From NCBI RefSeq assembly GCF_018986435.1, contig NZ_JAHMIN010000045.1, positions 1 to 40,234 on the forward strand: a DNA stretch of 40,234 bases. The letters are read 5' to 3'. Below the pieces are notes generated by a model. It did not search any database and was not told the origin of the DNA. It saw only the letters and a list, made by a program, of their open reading frames with translations. Positions 17,993-25,487 of the stretch are shown here, piece after piece. Each line of letters starts with the position of its first letter. Position 1 is the stretch's first letter. The DNA is from Hahella sp. HN01. Lineage in GTDB: Bacteria; Pseudomonadota; Gammaproteobacteria; Pseudomonadales; Oleiphilaceae. The position numbers were made by a program, and so were the translations under genes.

Positions 17993-18433
17993 CTATCTCC
18001 AGCAGTCGTCTTCACCAACAGCAGCAGTCCTCACTCCGGTCGAAGTTAGCTGCAGATTGCCGCACCGGTCTCCAACCATCGCTCCTATCGGTTGGGCCTG
18101 AATAGTAAAGCTATTCGTCGTAGAGGAGGTAATCCTCAAATTATAATATTTGGTCCCGCCATCCAGAGGCGCCTGGGAAGGATAGAGCGCCGGTAACGGC
18201 GCTCCAGTATTCTTCTTACCTTCCGCTGCACCGCCATAGGTAAACCCTTCGCTATAAAAGCGCTCAAGGGCTGAGGAAAGCCCGATGAGGGCTCCCTGCG
18301 CATCAGCTCTTCGCGATTTAGCTACGGACTCCTGATAGCTCGGGTATGCAAAAGCTGCAATGATTCCAATGATTGCTATCACTATAAGCAGCTCAATCAG
18401 AGAAAATCCCTCGTTGTTCAGTTTTATCTGCAT
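17993..18433 (-). CDS. pilE: PilE, type IV minor pilin
   Basis: The 146-aa prepilin has a short leader ending in Gly9 followed by FSLIELLIVIAIIGIIAAFAYPSY, the canonical N-terminal methylated helix with Glu5. Near the C-terminus two cysteines (GDRCG and DDCWR) can form the disulfide D-loop found in type IV pilins. In Pseudomonas, PilE is a non-core minor pilin linking the FimU-PilV-PilW-PilX-PilY1 priming complex to the fibre. It is last in the operon: pilY1 ends 4 bp before it and its GGAG ribosome binding site overlaps the pilY1 stop region. No pilY2 lies between them, unlike PAO1. Confidence 0.93.
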   Translation of the reverse strand: MQIKLNNEGFSLIELLIVIAIIGIIAAFAYPSYQESVAKSRRADAQGALIGLSSALERFYSEGFTYGGAAEGKKNTGAPLPALYPSQAPLDGGTKYYNLRITSSTTNSFTIQAQPIGAMVGDRCGNLQLTSTGVRTAAVGEDDCWR

Positions 18434-18437
18434 ACCT

Positions 18438-21400
18438 TTACTCCACTAGCTCTCGCCATCCAAGACGCCCTTCTCTTTCAGAACCTTTGCCGAAGTCGAC
18501 CAAGTCTTTCACTATCTCGCCGCCTTCAGTAATACCGTAACAGAAGTTACCAAGGCACACGGGCTTGTTAGGTTGAGGGTCACGAGGGTCAACAATAATT
18601 GGCGGCCCCTTGCCAACAGAAATCGGATCAGTGCCATTAATCACTCCATCGCTATTTATATCAAGAGTTGGTGAATCAGGCGGAAGCCCATCCACAATGG
18701 GTAGCACCATTAGCCAACTGCGCCCAACGCTCTGACATCCATCGCCCGATCCATCCAGCGGCACCAGCGTACTGAAGACAGCCAGACCTCCGCGAATATA
18801 GACCTTATCAATAACTCTTTCGCCGTCTTCACCGTCTATATTGGAGCCATCAGGGTTTTTAGCATCCAGGTCCATATACCAGCCGTGATAGGGATCAGCC
18901 CATGGATCAGTCACTGTGCTAGAAGTAAGTCTCTTCCAATATTTTTTCCCATCAATCTCAACGACCTCCTGAGTTAGTTTGCGACTAGCCAAGTCGCTAC
19001 GGACCATACTGTCCTTTCCATGATCCCATACCGCATAGAACGTTTGAACGTCTGTAATGCTGGGATCCTCAGTAGTTAAATACCGTCCTGTACCAAACAC
19101 CACTACTACATTAGGCGCAGCTCCCGAGTTGTCGGTTGGGTGGAACGTCAAATTTGGAGCCCCAGTAATCGGCTGGATCTTGCCTGTACTGTCTTTCGCT
19201 GTAAACAGAGGCTTCGGCGTAGTACCCGACTTGTAAGCCACCTTCCATGAGCCTTCATTCGAAGCAGAAACATCAAACGCCCACATATTGCCACGTGTGT
19301 CACCGGCATATACGCGATCAGCTACTCTATCACCGTCCAAATCAGCAACGGCGACGCCACCGAGACCTCCCGACAACGAACCAGTCCCATCATCAATCTC
19401 TATCTCTACATAGTCGTCGCCAACCGTCCAAGTACCATCTGCGCCATCTTCGATAAATAAAATCATCAACTTAGTTGAGTCATCTGTTGTTGATGCATCG
19501 CTGCCGGCATTGTAACCATTTCCAAATATCAAGGCCCATTTGCCATTGTTCATCATGGCCACGACAGGAGGCGATGTGATATACCCCAAATCAGAGTCGT
19601 CCTTGTCCGTAAACTCCCACATCACAATGTCGTCGGCTTTGGCGGCAGTGAAGTTGGCTGGATTCGTCACGTCTAGAGCGAAAAGCCCCTTACCTCCACC
19701 GCGCAAACCACCAACTAGTACCGTACGCCATGAGCGTGAGCTACCACCTGCGGGATCAATCCATACATCCGCCGCGATAGGAGTTAAGTCAACATAACTC
19801 TTGTGACCGTAATCAGGGTCCGCCAAGTAATGCAAACCAGAATATGCAGCATCAGAAAAGACTTTCGCCGGGATATAGGCCAAGACTTCCTCACCAGCAC
19901 CACTTCCTGACTCTTTCCCATTAAAGCCATGCAGCATGCCATCGTTTGCGCCGACATAGACAGCAGGAGTTCTCGAAGTCGCCGCGAAAGTCGAATAGGG
20001 GTCCACCGTCGAAGACGCTGGAGCTCCTGGAGCCACGCCGAAAGGAGCTTTGTCAGGATAACCTTGAGACGGCGCACCTACGTATACAGGCGTTGAGCTA
20101 ATAATATCTCCAAGTCGACTCGACCTGTCTCGCAATGATTTACCTTCGTTTGTCGTGTCGCCTCGAATAAAGTCCACTAGAGGCTTGGCCAACGCCCTTT
20201 TCTGACTTTCATCCAGACCAGTTAAGTCCTTGCCGTATAGCAAATCAGCTTTCTGAGCCTTAGTCAGGTTTGACCAGCTAGTGTCAGTGTCCGCGCTGAA
20301 AACCACTCCCCCTATATGCCCATCGCTTCCGCCGCTATTCGCTCCCTTATCGTTATCGTAAGTCAGAATCAATCTTGAGGTATAACTTCTAGAGTCCAAG
20401 TCCGTCTTTGCGGTCCATGCATTGCCGAGTACGTCCCCTGTTTTGGGATCAAGCCGAACAGCCTTCAAGTCACCTTCCCAAGTCGCCGAGCTGAAGGTTG
20501 CAGCAAATACTACACTGTCTGTTTGCAGCGAGGAGGTATTGAAAGTTACCCCAGACGAGGCTCCCGTCTTTTTCAATATCGACTTCACGGCATTGCCAAT
20601 TGCGTCCCCTAAAGCGGACGGGCGATCTGCGGAGAAGATCTCACCCCGCCCATTCACCGCTGCATGGTATAGGTCATCAACTTGGCTCTCATTATCGATC
20701 TTACCATCGACTACCCAAGATGGCGGATGGGCATAGGCGTCCTTCACTGTCATATATTTACCGCCACCGCCAGGGAAGTCCTGACCAAACACATATTTTC
20801 CGAGGCTTCCGAGACCGACTGTGTAAGTATTCATGTGCAAATTCTTGTTACAGTCTTCAGGCGAGGGCACACCTGCCTTAACGGCATTACAAGCCTCTGT
20901 ATCAATAGGCACTTGGCCAGCCTTCATACTGGTATTCAGATTCTCCTTATAATATTTCATTGCAACATCAGCCAAAGTATTCGACTGAGGATCCTTATCA
21001 GCGTATGGGACTCCTTCAGCAGTATCGACATCGCCAATACCTGAAATCTCTCCGTTATTAAATCCGTCAGTAAATAGAAGCGCAAAGTTCTTCTGGCAAG
21101 CGCCCTGAATAATATTGGGAGTATTTATATATTGGCTACCTGCGTGATTCAATGCTGTTCTCAGAGGCGTAGATCCACTACCAACATCGTTATAAAGATC
21201 CTTCAGAAACTTATTAACGCCCGCAGACTGGTCCATTTCATTCATAGCAACAGTTGGAGGAGAACCGCTTGCCGCATCGTTAATAGTAAACATACCTGTC
21301 CGTATACCATTAACACTCTGGAAGGCTTTGCCAATAGCGCCCCGAGTCGCTTGGTGTCTACGGCGGTAAAAGGAAAACCAATTAGCGAAGTTTTGCTTTT

Positions 21401-22940
21401 CTTGAAGAACAGTAACCCCTGTCCTGGCAGTACTACCATTGTTAAAGGTATCTGAGTCTGCACCTGTAATTTTATATTGCTGTAAGCAAGAACCATCAGG
21501 AGCAAGTGCAACGACATTGTCTGAAAACACAAAGCTTTTGGGGGAAGAGAGATAGTCATCATAATGGGAATAAGCAGCATCTGTTCCGCAGTTCCGCTCC
21601 ACATAACTTCCACTTGTATATGCAACCTTACCAGAGGGGACTATACTATCTTCTGTTGTGACAAATATTTGATCTATATACCCACCATCTTCGCGATGCC
21701 TTATTCTTAACGTCGCTGGAGATGATAAAGTAATGGAGCCAAATTCCTCCCAGTCCCATGCATATGAGTTTGAATGACTATTGTACCATTTATTCCAGTG
21801 TTCACCGCCACTTGAGTACCAATTTCCTGAGTTAGTTGGCATAGAAAACTCGGTATTCGTATGCCCTATCATATTAATCCAGAATGAATCATCGTTACTC
21901 GATGGAAACCAGCGACGAACCCATATCTTAATCTTACCTGTCAAAGTAATATTAACAGACACCTCACCGTCGGAAGACGACGGAATACTGTTACTAGAGT
22001 TGTCACTTCCACCTTGATTTCTAGTTCCGACAAACTCGCCCTTGGATGCATCCGCCGCAATGTCAGAGTAATTATACAACCGACCCAAACTATTTAAATC
22101 CGCTCCTTTTTTAAAAATAGTTCCAGATGAATAATTATCTTCAGCCTCAAATATCTGACTATTTGATGTAGTTATAGCAGCGTCAGTGTAGTATCTATAT
22201 GTACTCGTTGAGTTCTTGAGATAATACGTTCCAGGATAATATGTATAGTGCTTATCGTTAGTAGTACTGCAATTGTCAAATGTAGACATTTCACAAGGCA
22301 TATTACTACGACCGATATAAAACCCCCACCCAGTACCGCTCGTACTAGTATTAAAATCAGAGAATAAAGAAATCGTCCTTGAGGGAATAAGGGGATCGTA
22401 ACGTGTTGCAGTAACACTAGCATTAGGTATACTGCTTATCTTTCCTTCAAATGGAGAGTCTAGCTCACCGTATAGTGGCCAAGGAGTATAAGTTTCATTA
22501 GGATCATAATATGCTTTGTTATATTCTGAACTACGAGCAAAAGCATACGCTTTAATAGGAGGTATTTCTTTCCAACCTGTAAGCAGCATCCCACCACTAC
22601 TCGCCTGTGTTGAGGCATAATAGTTTGTACTGGACCCGTTTGGAAACAGATATCCATATGAAACAGCTCCATATGTATTAACTACTCCACTACTTGAAAA
22701 GCGGCCATCTGTCCCGAGATATAATAATCCTCCAGGAGTATCAAACATGGTTTCCCAGTCCATACTTCCTGAGTCGTCAACAATAACCATCAGGTTACTT
22801 TTCAAACCGCCTGATAGATAAAGCGGCTCATCAGCCAAACTCTTTAAGCCTGGGGTATAGCCAGCCGAGTATGAGTAAACTGGCGCAACCAGCCAAAAGC
22901 CAGCGGCAAGCCAAAAACTTTTCTTGATATACTTTTTCAT
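18438..22940 (-). CDS. pilY1: PilY1, type IV pilus tip adhesin with an extra lectin-like insertion
   Basis: PilY1 sits at the pilus tip, primes assembly with the minor pilins and acts in adhesion and surface sensing. The 1500-aa product has a Sec signal peptide (about 1-26) and a von Willebrand A domain whose MIDAS motif DDSGSMD (55-61) is separated from later vWA elements (GSTPL at 589-593, FTDG at 623-626) by a long insertion. It ends with a C-terminal PilC/PilY-type beta-propeller (about 940-1400) containing the calcium loop D1200-L-D1202-G-D1204-R-V-A-D1208. An RGD triplet lies at 926-928. A dockerin-like loop (1427-1438) lies near the end. PAO1 PilY1 has 1161 aa, so most of the extra length is N-terminal. 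GGAGG lies 7 bases before the ATG. Confidence 0.96.
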   Translation of the reverse strand: MKKYIKKSFWLAAGFWLVAPVYSYSAGYTPGLKSLADEPLYLSGGLKSNLMVIVDDSGSMDWETMFDTPGGLLYLGTDGRFSSSGVVNTYGAVSYGYLFPNGSSTNYYASTQASSGGMLLTGWKEIPPIKAYAFARSSEYNKAYYDPNETYTPWPLYGELDSPFEGKISSIPNASVTATRYDPLIPSRTISLFSDFNTSTSGTGWGFYIGRSNMPCEMSTFDNCSTTNDKHYTYYPGTYYLKNSTSTYRYYTDAAITTSNSQIFEAEDNYSSGTIFKKGADLNSLGRLYNYSDIAADASKGEFVGTRNQGGSDNSSNSIPSSSDGEVSVNITLTGKIKIWVRRWFPSSNDDSFWINMIGHTNTEFSMPTNSGNWYSSGGEHWNKWYNSHSNSYAWDWEEFGSITLSSPATLRIRHREDGGYIDQIFVTTEDSIVPSGKVAYTSGSYVERNCGTDAAYSHYDDYLSSPKSFVFSDNVVALAPDGSCLQQYKITGADSDTFNNGSTARTGVTVLQEKQNFANWFSFYRRRHQATRGAIGKAFQSVNGIRTGMFTINDAASGSPPTVAMNEMDQSAGVNKFLKDLYNDVGSGSTPLRTALNHAGSQYINTPNIIQGACQKNFALLFTDGFNNGEISGIGDVDTAEGVPYADKDPQSNTLADVAMKYYKENLNTSMKAGQVPIDTEACNAVKAGVPSPEDCNKNLHMNTYTVGLGSLGKYVFGQDFPGGGGKYMTVKDAYAHPPSWVVDGKIDNESQVDDLYHAAVNGRGEIFSADRPSALGDAIGNAVKSILKKTGASSGVTFNTSSLQTDSVVFAATFSSATWEGDLKAVRLDPKTGDVLGNAWTAKTDLDSRSYTSRLILTYDNDKGANSGGSDGHIGGVVFSADTDTSWSNLTKAQKADLLYGKDLTGLDESQKRALAKPLVDFIRGDTTNEGKSLRDRSSRLGDIISSTPVYVGAPSQGYPDKAPFGVAPGAPASSTVDPYSTFAATSRTPAVYVGANDGMLHGFNGKESGSGAGEEVLAYIPAKVFSDAAYSGLHYLADPDYGHKSYVDLTPIAADVWIDPAGGSSRSWRTVLVGGLRGGGKGLFALDVTNPANFTAAKADDIVMWEFTDKDDSDLGYITSPPVVAMMNNGKWALIFGNGYNAGSDASTTDDSTKLMILFIEDGADGTWTVGDDYVEIEIDDGTGSLSGGLGGVAVADLDGDRVADRVYAGDTRGNMWAFDVSASNEGSWKVAYKSGTTPKPLFTAKDSTGKIQPITGAPNLTFHPTDNSGAAPNVVVVFGTGRYLTTEDPSITDVQTFYAVWDHGKDSMVRSDLASRKLTQEVVEIDGKKYWKRLTSSTVTDPWADPYHGWYMDLDAKNPDGSNIDGEDGERVIDKVYIRGGLAVFSTLVPLDGSGDGCQSVGRSWLMVLPIVDGLPPDSPTLDINSDGVINGTDPISVGKGPPIIVDPRDPQPNKPVCLGNFCYGITEGGEIVKDLVDFGKGSEREGRLGWRELVE
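21651..22157 (-). other. Segment of pilY1 encoding a carbohydrate-binding-like jelly-roll domain
   Basis: PilY1 residues about 262-430 read as a galactose-binding-like module of the CBM6/CBM35 kind. They start with FEAED (264-268), pass through KIKIWVRRWFPSSNDDSFWINM (336-357), a W-x-W pair (395-397) and FGSITLSSPATLRIRHRED (400-418), and end GGYIDQIFVTTED-SIVPSG (419-437). That order of Glu-Ala-Glu, DDSFW, WxW, HTL-like strand, REDG and LD-I-L-T is what I know from secreted glycan-binding proteins. It lies in the loop between vWA MIDAS elements. The assignment is by pattern only. Confidence 0.65.
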
Positions 22941-22970: not shown

Positions 22971-23504
22971 TTAGAATCGCTTACCGTAATAACTTTCGAC
23001 AATACGTTGCGACACTCCTGACGCACCCGTACTCCGCGCGATAATTTTAAAGCCCACTATTTCGCCCGCTCCCGACTCATGACTGTATGTTTCAATATTC
23101 AGTTTTGTTTTCTCATCTGGAGCAGCAACTTTACCAACATGTTGGATGAAGTACTTAGGGGCTTCACTTAGCCCGCTAACTTTAGTCGCACTTTTTACCT
23201 TAGTCGCATTAGCCCAGTCAGTCGTAGAGAATGGATCAGGAATCGTTGTAGAATTCATAGCGTATAGCCCACCGGTATTATCAAACGCAGCAGTACTCGC
23301 CACTCCAGTCTCAATAAAGCTTTCAGCCTCTCGCAAAGTAGCCTCAACCCCTTGCAAAGCTATATTGGAGTCCTGAACTGCACCCGCCATCTTGCCCTGC
23401 ATAACACTATCATTCATTGAGGCAAGGCCCAGTATTGTAAGTACAAGAAGCAGTATCAAACTGACGAACAGGGCCGCGCCTGACTGTCTATTGTTAACTT
23501 TCAT
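22971..23504 (-). CDS. pilX: PilX, type IV minor pilin
   Basis: The 177-aa protein begins with a basic leader and QSGAALFVSLILLLVLTILGLASMNDS. This is the PilX-type variant of the prepilin N-terminus, in which Ala replaces the usual Phe1 and Glu5 is absent. PilX is one of the core minor pilins that prime pilus assembly together with PilV, PilW, FimU and PilY1. It starts 1 bp after the pilW stop and ends 30 bp before pilY1. The coding sequence is visibly richer in A and T than the housekeeping genes on either side. The identification rests on the N-terminus and on its place in the conserved operon order. Confidence 0.9.
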   Translation of the reverse strand: MKVNNRQSGAALFVSLILLLVLTILGLASMNDSVMQGKMAGAVQDSNIALQGVEATLREAESFIETGVASTAAFDNTGGLYAMNSTTIPDPFSTTDWANATKVKSATKVSGLSEAPKYFIQHVGKVAAPDEKTKLNIETYSHESGAGEIVGFKIIARSTGASGVSQRIVESYYGKRF

Positions 23505-23505
23505 C

Positions 23506-24516
23506 TCAATTAACCCTATTTCTTAAAGTACTAACTGATTGAAACGTTGTAGTGAGAGGGTTACCGGAGACAGTAAGTACATTATCCTCAGACTCCAAAG
23601 TAAAACTCGTTTTCACTGCAACTATACGACCTATTACTAACGCGGCATCCTCGGGCTCAAGAAACCTATCTACTGATTTATCACCGCCGGAGCTGTCCTC
23701 CCCCATAAGGAACTGCATATCTGAAATACCTTCCGCTAACTCGTGAGTAACTAGTGTGGTTCCTTCTAATTGAGTAACAAACAACGATGGTCTGCTATTT
23801 GCCCCATTAGCCACGTAGTAAACTTTAGCTGTATACCTTAATAAGAAAGAATCATTTGAGTAGCTACCATCCAGTTTAGGCGGAGACACATTCCAGTTGG
23901 CGCCATGAGTTACTGTGTCAGCACTAGCACCACCAGAAATTGGGTTGTTTGTAATCGCAAACATATCCGCATACTGACAATTAGATACAACGACAATATC
24001 ATTCTGGCTTATACCACATGCTTTAGCGTCTTCTATCTTAAAGCTAGCAGATGACTGATTGTACGAAACAACCTTCCCGCCATTACAAGGCGAAGCCCCT
24101 TTTATAACAATAGCATCAGTGCCAGTTATAACTTGGCCACTTGCAGTCCCTACAGTCAAACCAAAGTTGTTTAACTCACTACCACTTGCGATAGAAGATA
24201 TATTATTATAGGCAACAATTCCTTTACTCGAATCAAAGTCAGGAATACCTGCTTTATATTTGGATGGCTCAACAATGCTATTAAAATTTACGCCATTTGA
24301 GCACCCAGTATAGGCGGCATTCCTTATATCTCTATTCAGCATTTCCATTGCCAAGCGCCCACTTTCTTGAACTCTGGCGTAACCGTCCTGGAGCTGAAAT
24401 GCTTGTTTATTAGAGTTAAATATTTGAAAAATCCCAATAAGTAATAATGCACTAAGCGCCAATGCGATCATTACTTCAACGAGTGATAGCCCCTTCTGCG
24501 CAATCAACCTGCTCAT
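23506..24516 (-). CDS. pilW: PilW, type IV minor pilin
   Basis: The 336-aa product is the largest minor pilin of the set, as in Pseudomonas. It has a prepilin signal ending in Gly9 (MSRLIAQKG) followed by LSLVEVMIALALSALLLIGIFQIF, with Glu5 present. The region FQLQDGYARVQESGRLAMEMLNRDIRNAAYTGC is the family hallmark (PilW superfamily). PilW takes part in the core priming subcomplex with FimU, PilV, PilX and PilY1. AAGG lies 8 bases before the ATG. Spacing is tight on both sides (18 bp from pilV, 1 bp to pilX). AT-rich like pilX. Confidence 0.94.
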   Translation of the reverse strand: MSRLIAQKGLSLVEVMIALALSALLLIGIFQIFNSNKQAFQLQDGYARVQESGRLAMEMLNRDIRNAAYTGCSNGVNFNSIVEPSKYKAGIPDFDSSKGIVAYNNISSIASGSELNNFGLTVGTASGQVITGTDAIVIKGASPCNGGKVVSYNQSSASFKIEDAKACGISQNDIVVVSNCQYADMFAITNNPISGGASADTVTHGANWNVSPPKLDGSYSNDSFLLRYTAKVYYVANGANSRPSLFVTQLEGTTLVTHELAEGISDMQFLMGEDSSGGDKSVDRFLEPEDAALVIGRIVAVKTSFTLESEDNVLTVSGNPLTTTFQSVSTLRNRVN

Positions 24517-24534: not shown

Positions 24535-25005
24535 TTAGGGTTGAAAAGTAAGTGAAACCGTACTTTGCTCGCTGGAAGTATCCGCATCCGCTCCCTCCGC
24601 TTGCTTAACACGATCATTCCATGTGACAGTAATGGTAAATAAACCGCCATTGTTGGCAATGGTCCCTGCGCCACCAGGCAACTCATCGCCTAATTCCTGG
24701 AGCCACTCGAACTTATCATTCGCAGCCATTTGCGCGGAGGTACAACCTGCCGTCGTTAGGCAAGCTGCGTTCTGTGCAGATCCTGTTTCGTTATCATAGC
24801 TACCCGCAGCAACACCAACCCTATTAGCTCTTATTCTGTCGGCCATATCATTGGCAAGATATACCGCAACGCTTCTCAGGTTCGCATTTGTAGAACTCTT
24901 GACAGACATAACCTGGAGGCCAGCAATTCCAAGCAACCCAATCGCCAGGATAACTACCGCAACCAATATCTCTATTAGTGTGAAACCCCTCTGCCTGCCT
25001 ATCAT
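24535..25005 (-). CDS. pilV: PilV, type IV minor pilin
   Basis: From the ATG at 25005 the product has 156 aa and begins MIGRQRGFTLIEILVAVVILAIGLLGIAGLQVMS, a PilV-type prepilin N-terminus cleaved after Gly7. The stretch ANLRSVAVYLANDMADRIRANR is characteristic of PilV. The start codon overlaps the fimU stop by four bases (ATGA), and a GAGG box lies about 8 bases before it; a GTG two codons upstream is less likely. PilV is part of the minor-pilin priming complex. Confidence 0.94.
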   Translation of the reverse strand: MIGRQRGFTLIEILVAVVILAIGLLGIAGLQVMSVKSSTNANLRSVAVYLANDMADRIRANRVGVAAGSYDNETGSAQNAACLTTAGCTSAQMAANDKFEWLQELGDELPGGAGTIANNGGLFTITVTWNDRVKQAEGADADTSSEQSTVSLTFQP

Positions 25006-25487
25006 GAGCACACCTCATCAATAATCGTTACTCGGCCAGCCGAAGAGACGTCAACCTTGCGGCCAGTGGCAATATTTTTATTACCACTACATAATTTTAT
25101 GCTCGTCGCCCCAGAGGCGAAGCCAGAGCCAGAAAAAGAAATCGCAGCGGCAGGGCCTGTGGCAGTGGTCTCATCTTTAAATGCATCGAAGATACGAAGC
25201 TGTTCTTCACCAGCATCGTAGGAGCCATCATTATCCGTATCGATCCAGACTCGATACCCCCCCTGCCATCCTGTTCCCCCACTGGAAGCCGCAATTCGAA
25301 TAGTACGACCACGCTTTACCGCTTCAGACCTAGCAAAGTTAAGAGCCCCTACAAGCTCATTCGTGCTTGAGGTAAGTCTATTACTGTCGATGATATAGCC
25401 CATGCTGGGCAGCCCAAATGCAAGTGCGATAGCAAGTATGGTTAAAACAACCATCAACTCAATTAATGTAAAACCTTTCTGCTTCAT
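25002..25487 (-). CDS. fimU: FimU, type IV minor pilin (GspH/FimT family)
   Basis: The 161-aa product begins MKQKGFTLIELMVVLTILAIALAFGLPSM, cleaved after Gly5. It has a GspH-type globular domain (NELVGALNFARSEAVKRGRTIRI; later DTDNDGSYDAGEEQLRIFD). In PAO1 the equivalent gene heads the minor pilin operon after fimT. Here it is the first gene of fimU-pilV-pilW-pilX-pilY1-pilE on the minus strand, with two LytTR-type repeats 67-95 bases before its start. Two cysteines near the end (KLCSG and EVCS) may form a disulfide. Whether it is the FimU or FimT orthologue rests on position. Confidence 0.88.
   Translation of the reverse strand: MKQKGFTLIELMVVLTILAIALAFGLPSMGYIIDSNRLTSSTNELVGALNFARSEAVKRGRTIRIAASSGGTGWQGGYRVWIDTDNDGSYDAGEEQLRIFDAFKDETTATGPAAAISFSGSGFASGATSIKLCSGNKNIATGRKVDVSSAGRVTIIDEVCS

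Follow-up and report, generated by a model that had tools for sequence, protein, structure and literature searches.

The DNA analysed here (hereafter the window, 40,234 nucleotides long) comes from Hahella sp. HN01 (contig NZ_JAHMIN010000045.1, positions 1 to 40,234) and contains the gene coding for PilY1. In type IVa pili this protein acts as the adhesin at the tip and has been proposed to sense touch, but its ligand is known for few species. The gene lies within a minor pilin cluster, with pilX, pilW, pilV-type and fimU/GspH-type genes upstream and a pilE/ComP-type gene downstream (Table 1), and is the only one of its kind found in the genome, a search with the propeller family having given a single place. 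The C-terminal part of the protein carries the propeller of that family and is akin to the solved C-terminal part of Pseudomonas aeruginosa PilY1. The N-terminal part includes a von Willebrand factor type A (vWA) domain with a metal ion-dependent adhesion site (MIDAS), and in this domain an additional module of the carbohydrate-binding type appears to be inserted.

The extra module and its place in the vWA domain

The initial annotation had recognised a lectin-like segment in PilY1 from a series of motifs, all of which are present at the residues given there, from the MIDAS motif at 55-61 through RGD at 926-928. They include EAED from residue 265, WVRRWF from 340, WDW at 395-397, LRIRHREDGG at 411-420, IDQIFVT at 422-428 and VPSG at 434-437, followed by TDGF from 624. 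The borders proposed for the segment, 21651-22157, hold at the N-terminal end of the module and fall about 24 bases short at the other, where the homologues support 21627. In the alignment of nine modules, that of the window included, 16 columns are invariant and 28 have at least eight of nine residues identical; both W395 and W397 are found in all nine. Since the module is conserved as a unit in these sequences, it is not a product of chance. When the segment alone was used as a query, 12 of 97 related genomes (own included) gave a match at E 0.01 or better, nine of them in frames of 1443-1534 aa and the others in frames of 943, 264 and 5736 aa (genomes G010, G090 and G067, respectively).

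Both a DxSxS motif and the vWA fold were found in PilY1, with the fold broken by a long excursion, which in the 776-residue model is flanked by a strand (24-30) and a helix (487-500, model numbering). That the insertion lies within the vWA domain, past the MIDAS motif, was already part of the initial annotation; this agrees with the model, and the place can now be narrowed to the excursion that leads from strand 1 to helix 1. Of the 35 PilY1 proteins in a wider alignment, 7 carry the module, and the other 28 have at most a few residues in its place. Among loci with a recognisable upstream motif, the slot from YNxxYYDP to NFANWF measures 360-403 residues in carriers and 116-194 in the others with both motifs, save L087 (264), L091 (274), L120 (249), L125 (431) and L133 (271). 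The larger slots of L080, L087 and L091 were also read by eye, and the module profile reports none of them. Alignment and predicted structure thus both support a clean position of the module in the vWA excursion that follows the MIDAS strand. Pfam assigned no vWA family to the whole protein at E 10, nor to its N-terminal half at E 0.001; as VWA_2 scores in only 2 of 51 PilY1 N-terminal segments (L080 included, L087 and L091 left out), the Pfam vWA model is a poor detector here.

The insertion had also been argued from the position of the RGD motif, taken as 619-621 in P. aeruginosa PAO1, which would leave about 307 extra residues on its N-terminal side. The available part of PMC3248442 gives 619-621 for strain PAK and 657-659 for PAO1, so that the argument was set aside, the motif being common in PilY1 as well; the excess over PAO1 is about 269 residues, about 177 of which belong to the module. 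The RGD of the window (20157-20165) falls in a widespread PilY1 motif and is seen in 12 of 21 aligned rows. Being common at that place, it gives no evidence of integrin binding here.

Table 1 Features of the pilY1 region (window coordinates) and of three PilY1 loci compared with it (locus coordinates)
Feature	Coordinates	Strand	Basis or remark
Inserted CBM35/GH115_C-like beta-sandwich module, residues about 262-438	21627..22157	-	Homologues, predicted fold, profile comparison
vWA domain as a whole, residues about 46-793, broken by long excursion	20562..22805	-	
MIDAS motif DDSGSMD, residues 55-61	22758..22778	-	DDS[GS]SMD in the 11 carriers examined
Excursion holding the module, vWA strand 1 to helix 1, residues about 62-510	21411..22757	-	Predicted secondary structure
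NFANWF motif in vWA helix 1, residues 517-522, downstream slot border	21375..21392	-	Conserved
TDGFNNG, later vWA/MIDAS element, residues 624-630	21051..21071	-	
pilY1, 1500 aa, type IVa pilus tip adhesin	18438..22940	-	PF05567, E 3.3e-53; PDB 3hx6, E 1.6e-58
PilY1 beta-propeller, residues 943-1315	18996..20114	-	PF05567
pilX minor pilin	22971..23504	-	PF13681, E 9.9e-14; PF14341
pilW minor pilin	23506..24516	-	PF16074, E 1.3e-9
pilV-type minor pilin	24535..25011	-	PF22150, PF07963
fimU/GspH-type minor pilin	25002..25487	-	PF12019, E 2.8e-23
pilE/ComP-type minor pilin	17993..18433	-	PF16732, E 4.3e-23
Golvesin_C type domains in vWA excursion	L120 5413-5808; L125 5440-5820; L133 2248-2688		

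The minor pilin at the pilE position scores as ComP_DUS, the family of DNA uptake sequence receptors.

Fold and relatives of the module

According to the AlphaFold predictions, built on 8 and 35 sequences, the module is a confident, mostly beta domain with a jelly-roll fold of the CBM35/CBM6 type, and among solved structures it is matched best by CBM35, CBM6 and GH115 C-terminal domains. By profile it is nearest to the C-terminal domain of GH115 glucuronidases: in a comparison with hhalign it was related to GH115_C-type domains with a probability of 98.2 (E 6e-14, 93 columns), the match covering the C-terminal two thirds of the module. No CBM family of Pfam matched any of the nine modules at E 10. 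The jelly-roll reading of the initial annotation, for which a profile search and a structure prediction had been suggested as checks, is thereby borne out at the level of predicted fold and profile kinship.

Outside PilY1, the module profile finds three copies in a 943-aa protein with Ig repeats (L058), one copy in a giant cadherin-repeat protein (L012) and a 264-aa protein matched in two pieces (L011), and in all three proteins the domains are GH115_C (PF17829) by Pfam. In the longest frame per locus, such matches outside PilY1 show neither the MIDAS nor the NFANW motif, apart from a stray DGSAS in L150. The GH115_C model does not report the PilY1 module in Pfam scans of the whole protein and of the nine modules, and the two places below the cut-off that it gives in the own genome do not include PilY1, which makes the module a distant branch. 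It has in common with the GH115 C-terminal domain and CBM35 the fold and the order of motifs (EAE, WxR, DS, WxW, RE, D), but lacks some of their conserved residues and is placed in a pilus protein. No credible match to the module was obtained with Pfam and NCBIfam for the whole protein, with Pfam for the nine modules or with a sequence profile against PDB; glycosyltransferase lines from the PDB search (E 0.37) and one LolA_2 line from Pfam (nine modules, E 0.049) look like chance. Ordinary domain searches overlook modules of this sort, as Pfam reports none here.

It is highly improbable that the segment is disordered or simply the usual vWA excursion of PilY1 in a longer form. The measured PilY1 proteins do vary in excursion length at this place, but the prediction contradicts both possibilities with a confident separate fold, the insertion is clean, and the module has homologues of its own outside PilY1.

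In L058, from genome G010, the three GH115_C-type domains alternate with Ig-like domains, and the module profile matches six more places in this genome, located on two further contigs.

Distribution and history of the module

A taxon survey, likewise suggested in the initial annotation, was made with the module profile at E 1e-5 and gave matches in 13 of 163 family genomes, lying in PilY1 in 12 of them and in other proteins in one (G010). Within the genus the module is present in the own genome and three more and absent in G001, G003 and G006; G003 is counted as a non-carrier but shows no PilY1 at all, which an assembly gap may explain. Draws of 390, 369 and 398 genomes from the order, class and phylum, which overlap and in which at most 8-9 candidates were scored per genome, contained 7, 5 and 2 matched genomes, respectively, and only in the own genome was the match in PilY1. 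Genome contigs were also scanned for relatives, and 8 of 78 loci from the best 80 of 534 confirmed relatives carry the module, one of them as a fragment. These eight belong to Hahella sp. CCB-MM4, four Marinobacter strains, an Oleiphilaceae metagenome-assembled genome (MAG) and two gammaproteobacterial MAGs; we take the named carriers to be mostly bacteria of marine or saline habitats.

In a PilY1 tree made without the module, a single branch (SH-aLRT 88, not starred) sets off all 11 carriers included, and the nearest non-carriers belong to Marinobacter, Vreelandella and Saccharospirillum. This was a quick tree of 36 hand-picked proteins, several of them of odd composition, with the carrier G438 and the fragment L070 left out. 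A single gain of the module, one change on the tree, is the simplest account.

The PilY1 of G001, a member of the same genus (L053, 1138 aa), has an N-terminal half of quite another kind and branches far away in the tree, and there are hints that the pilY1 gene may have been replaced in that genome.

Between the window and G002, dN/dS is 0.074 for the module and 0.055 for the whole gene, rough values given that dS is near 1. Nine carriers share on average 36% pairwise identity in the module, compared with 44% in the part that precedes it and 50% in the part that follows. By these sequence comparisons, the module is under purifying selection yet changes faster than its frame.

Proposed role and other domains in the same excursion

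Taken together, we consider it probable that a beta-sandwich of the carbohydrate-binding type was inserted in a loop at the surface of the vWA domain of PilY1, most simply once, in an ancestor of a Hahella/Marinobacter lineage, and that it serves as an outermost, glycan-binding head loading a force sensor. PilY1 is presumably a tip protein here too, as it is in other bacteria, which would make the module the outermost head. The head might bind the bacterium's own exopolysaccharide, or an algal or particle polysaccharide, and the pull on the bound glycan during retraction would load the vWA element thought to sense force. Since the two ends of the module's chain join the vWA domain in the stretch from the MIDAS strand to helix 1, a load on the head would pass through that element. 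Sugar binding is plausible from kinship, and a glycan is the likeliest ligand considering the fold, the kin in polysaccharide enzymes and the invariant pair of tryptophans.

The fold might also be kept without sugar binding, as a rigid arm shaping or shielding the MIDAS in the manner of the PilB and RrgA arms or of the finger of Acinetobacter ComC, which we regard as unlikely: of the known arms, one is described as a loop, another as a sheet of four strands and the third as a protrusion some 90 residues long, whereas the Hahella module forms an entire domain with relatives outside PilY1, and W395 and W397 are invariant throughout the nine modules. Related folds are able to bind proteins or membranes. 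A protein ligand in place of a glycan would also have a parallel in the vWA module of Streptococcus sanguinis PilB, which binds host proteins according to the available parts of PMC8179133 and PMC9934059. This alternative seems to us less likely still, because enzymes acting on polysaccharides are the source of most of the nearest structures and of the linked Pfam family. The presumed marine or saline habitat of most named carriers also speaks against it.

The proposed glycan-binding head has partial precedents. In Acinetobacter baumannii, the PilY1 orthologue ComC likewise has lineage-specific insertions in the vWA domain, and its vWA insertion matters for function, but the ComC finger (residues 166-256) is a Tyr-rich protrusion and the Hahella insert a domain of the carbohydrate-binding type (available part of PMC10374093). 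A sugar-binding-type module, DUF4114, is present on PilY1.1 and PilY1.2 of Myxococcus xanthus and was proposed to bind exopolysaccharide (PMC9109919, PMC13190605, as far as available); unlike the Hahella module, it is N-terminal, replaces the vWA domain and belongs to another domain family. In S. sanguinis PilC a glycan-binding module was modelled at the type IV pilus tip and its binding shown, but the carrier is a minor pilin with a C-terminal ConA-like lectin and no nesting in a vWA domain (available text of PMC9934059). For fifteen published PilY1/PilC proteins, the accessible portion of PMC13190605 states that N-terminal domains other than vWFA and DUF4114 were not identified, and a module of the present kind may figure among the 68 PilY1 architectures in InterPro mentioned in the accessible portion of PMC8179133. 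The literature searches, which left subscription journals mostly uncovered, showed, among the papers listed, no report of this module type in a PilY1 vWA domain. The suggestion that such an adhesin is little described therefore stands, as far as the literature was searched, for the module in this place but not for its components: to judge from the parts of those papers available, publications already describe lineage-specific insertions in the vWA domain of PilY1/ComC and, at the tips of pili, modules that bind sugars.

A separable sugar-binding-type module beside the metal site offers a testable ligand for one lineage, and close relatives with and without it constitute a natural experiment.

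Whole foreign domains are also found in the MIDAS-NFANW excursion of other PilY1 proteins. Golvesin_C (PF25275) domains were reported by Pfam in 3 of the 51 N-terminal segments, two of which, L120 and L125, were confirmed singly, the third being L133 by sequence; the three records are from Desulfobacteraceae, Desulfobacterales and Desulfatibacillum. These domains, which are of a carbohydrate-binding type, precede the AxYY strand, whereas the Hahella module follows it, and that the two belong to the same family was rejected by profile comparison (probability 0.2). The presence of two unrelated domains in one excursion suggests, although two kinds are few, a reusable socket between strand 1 and helix 1 into which lineages independently plugged unrelated domains of the sugar-binding type, an idea that we put forward tentatively and consider less likely than not. 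If true, it would mean that the pilus tip has an exchangeable head for gripping glycans, with a direct connection to the metal site and to the force-sensing helix.

By eye, L125 seems to have a further sandwich-like stretch just before its Golvesin_C domain. PilY1-like frames of 1720-2411 aa were seen in L101, L107, L109, L115, L121 and L122, and four of these, L101, L107, L109 and L121, have, when read by eye, long arrays of cadherin/Ig-like repeats before the vWA domain.
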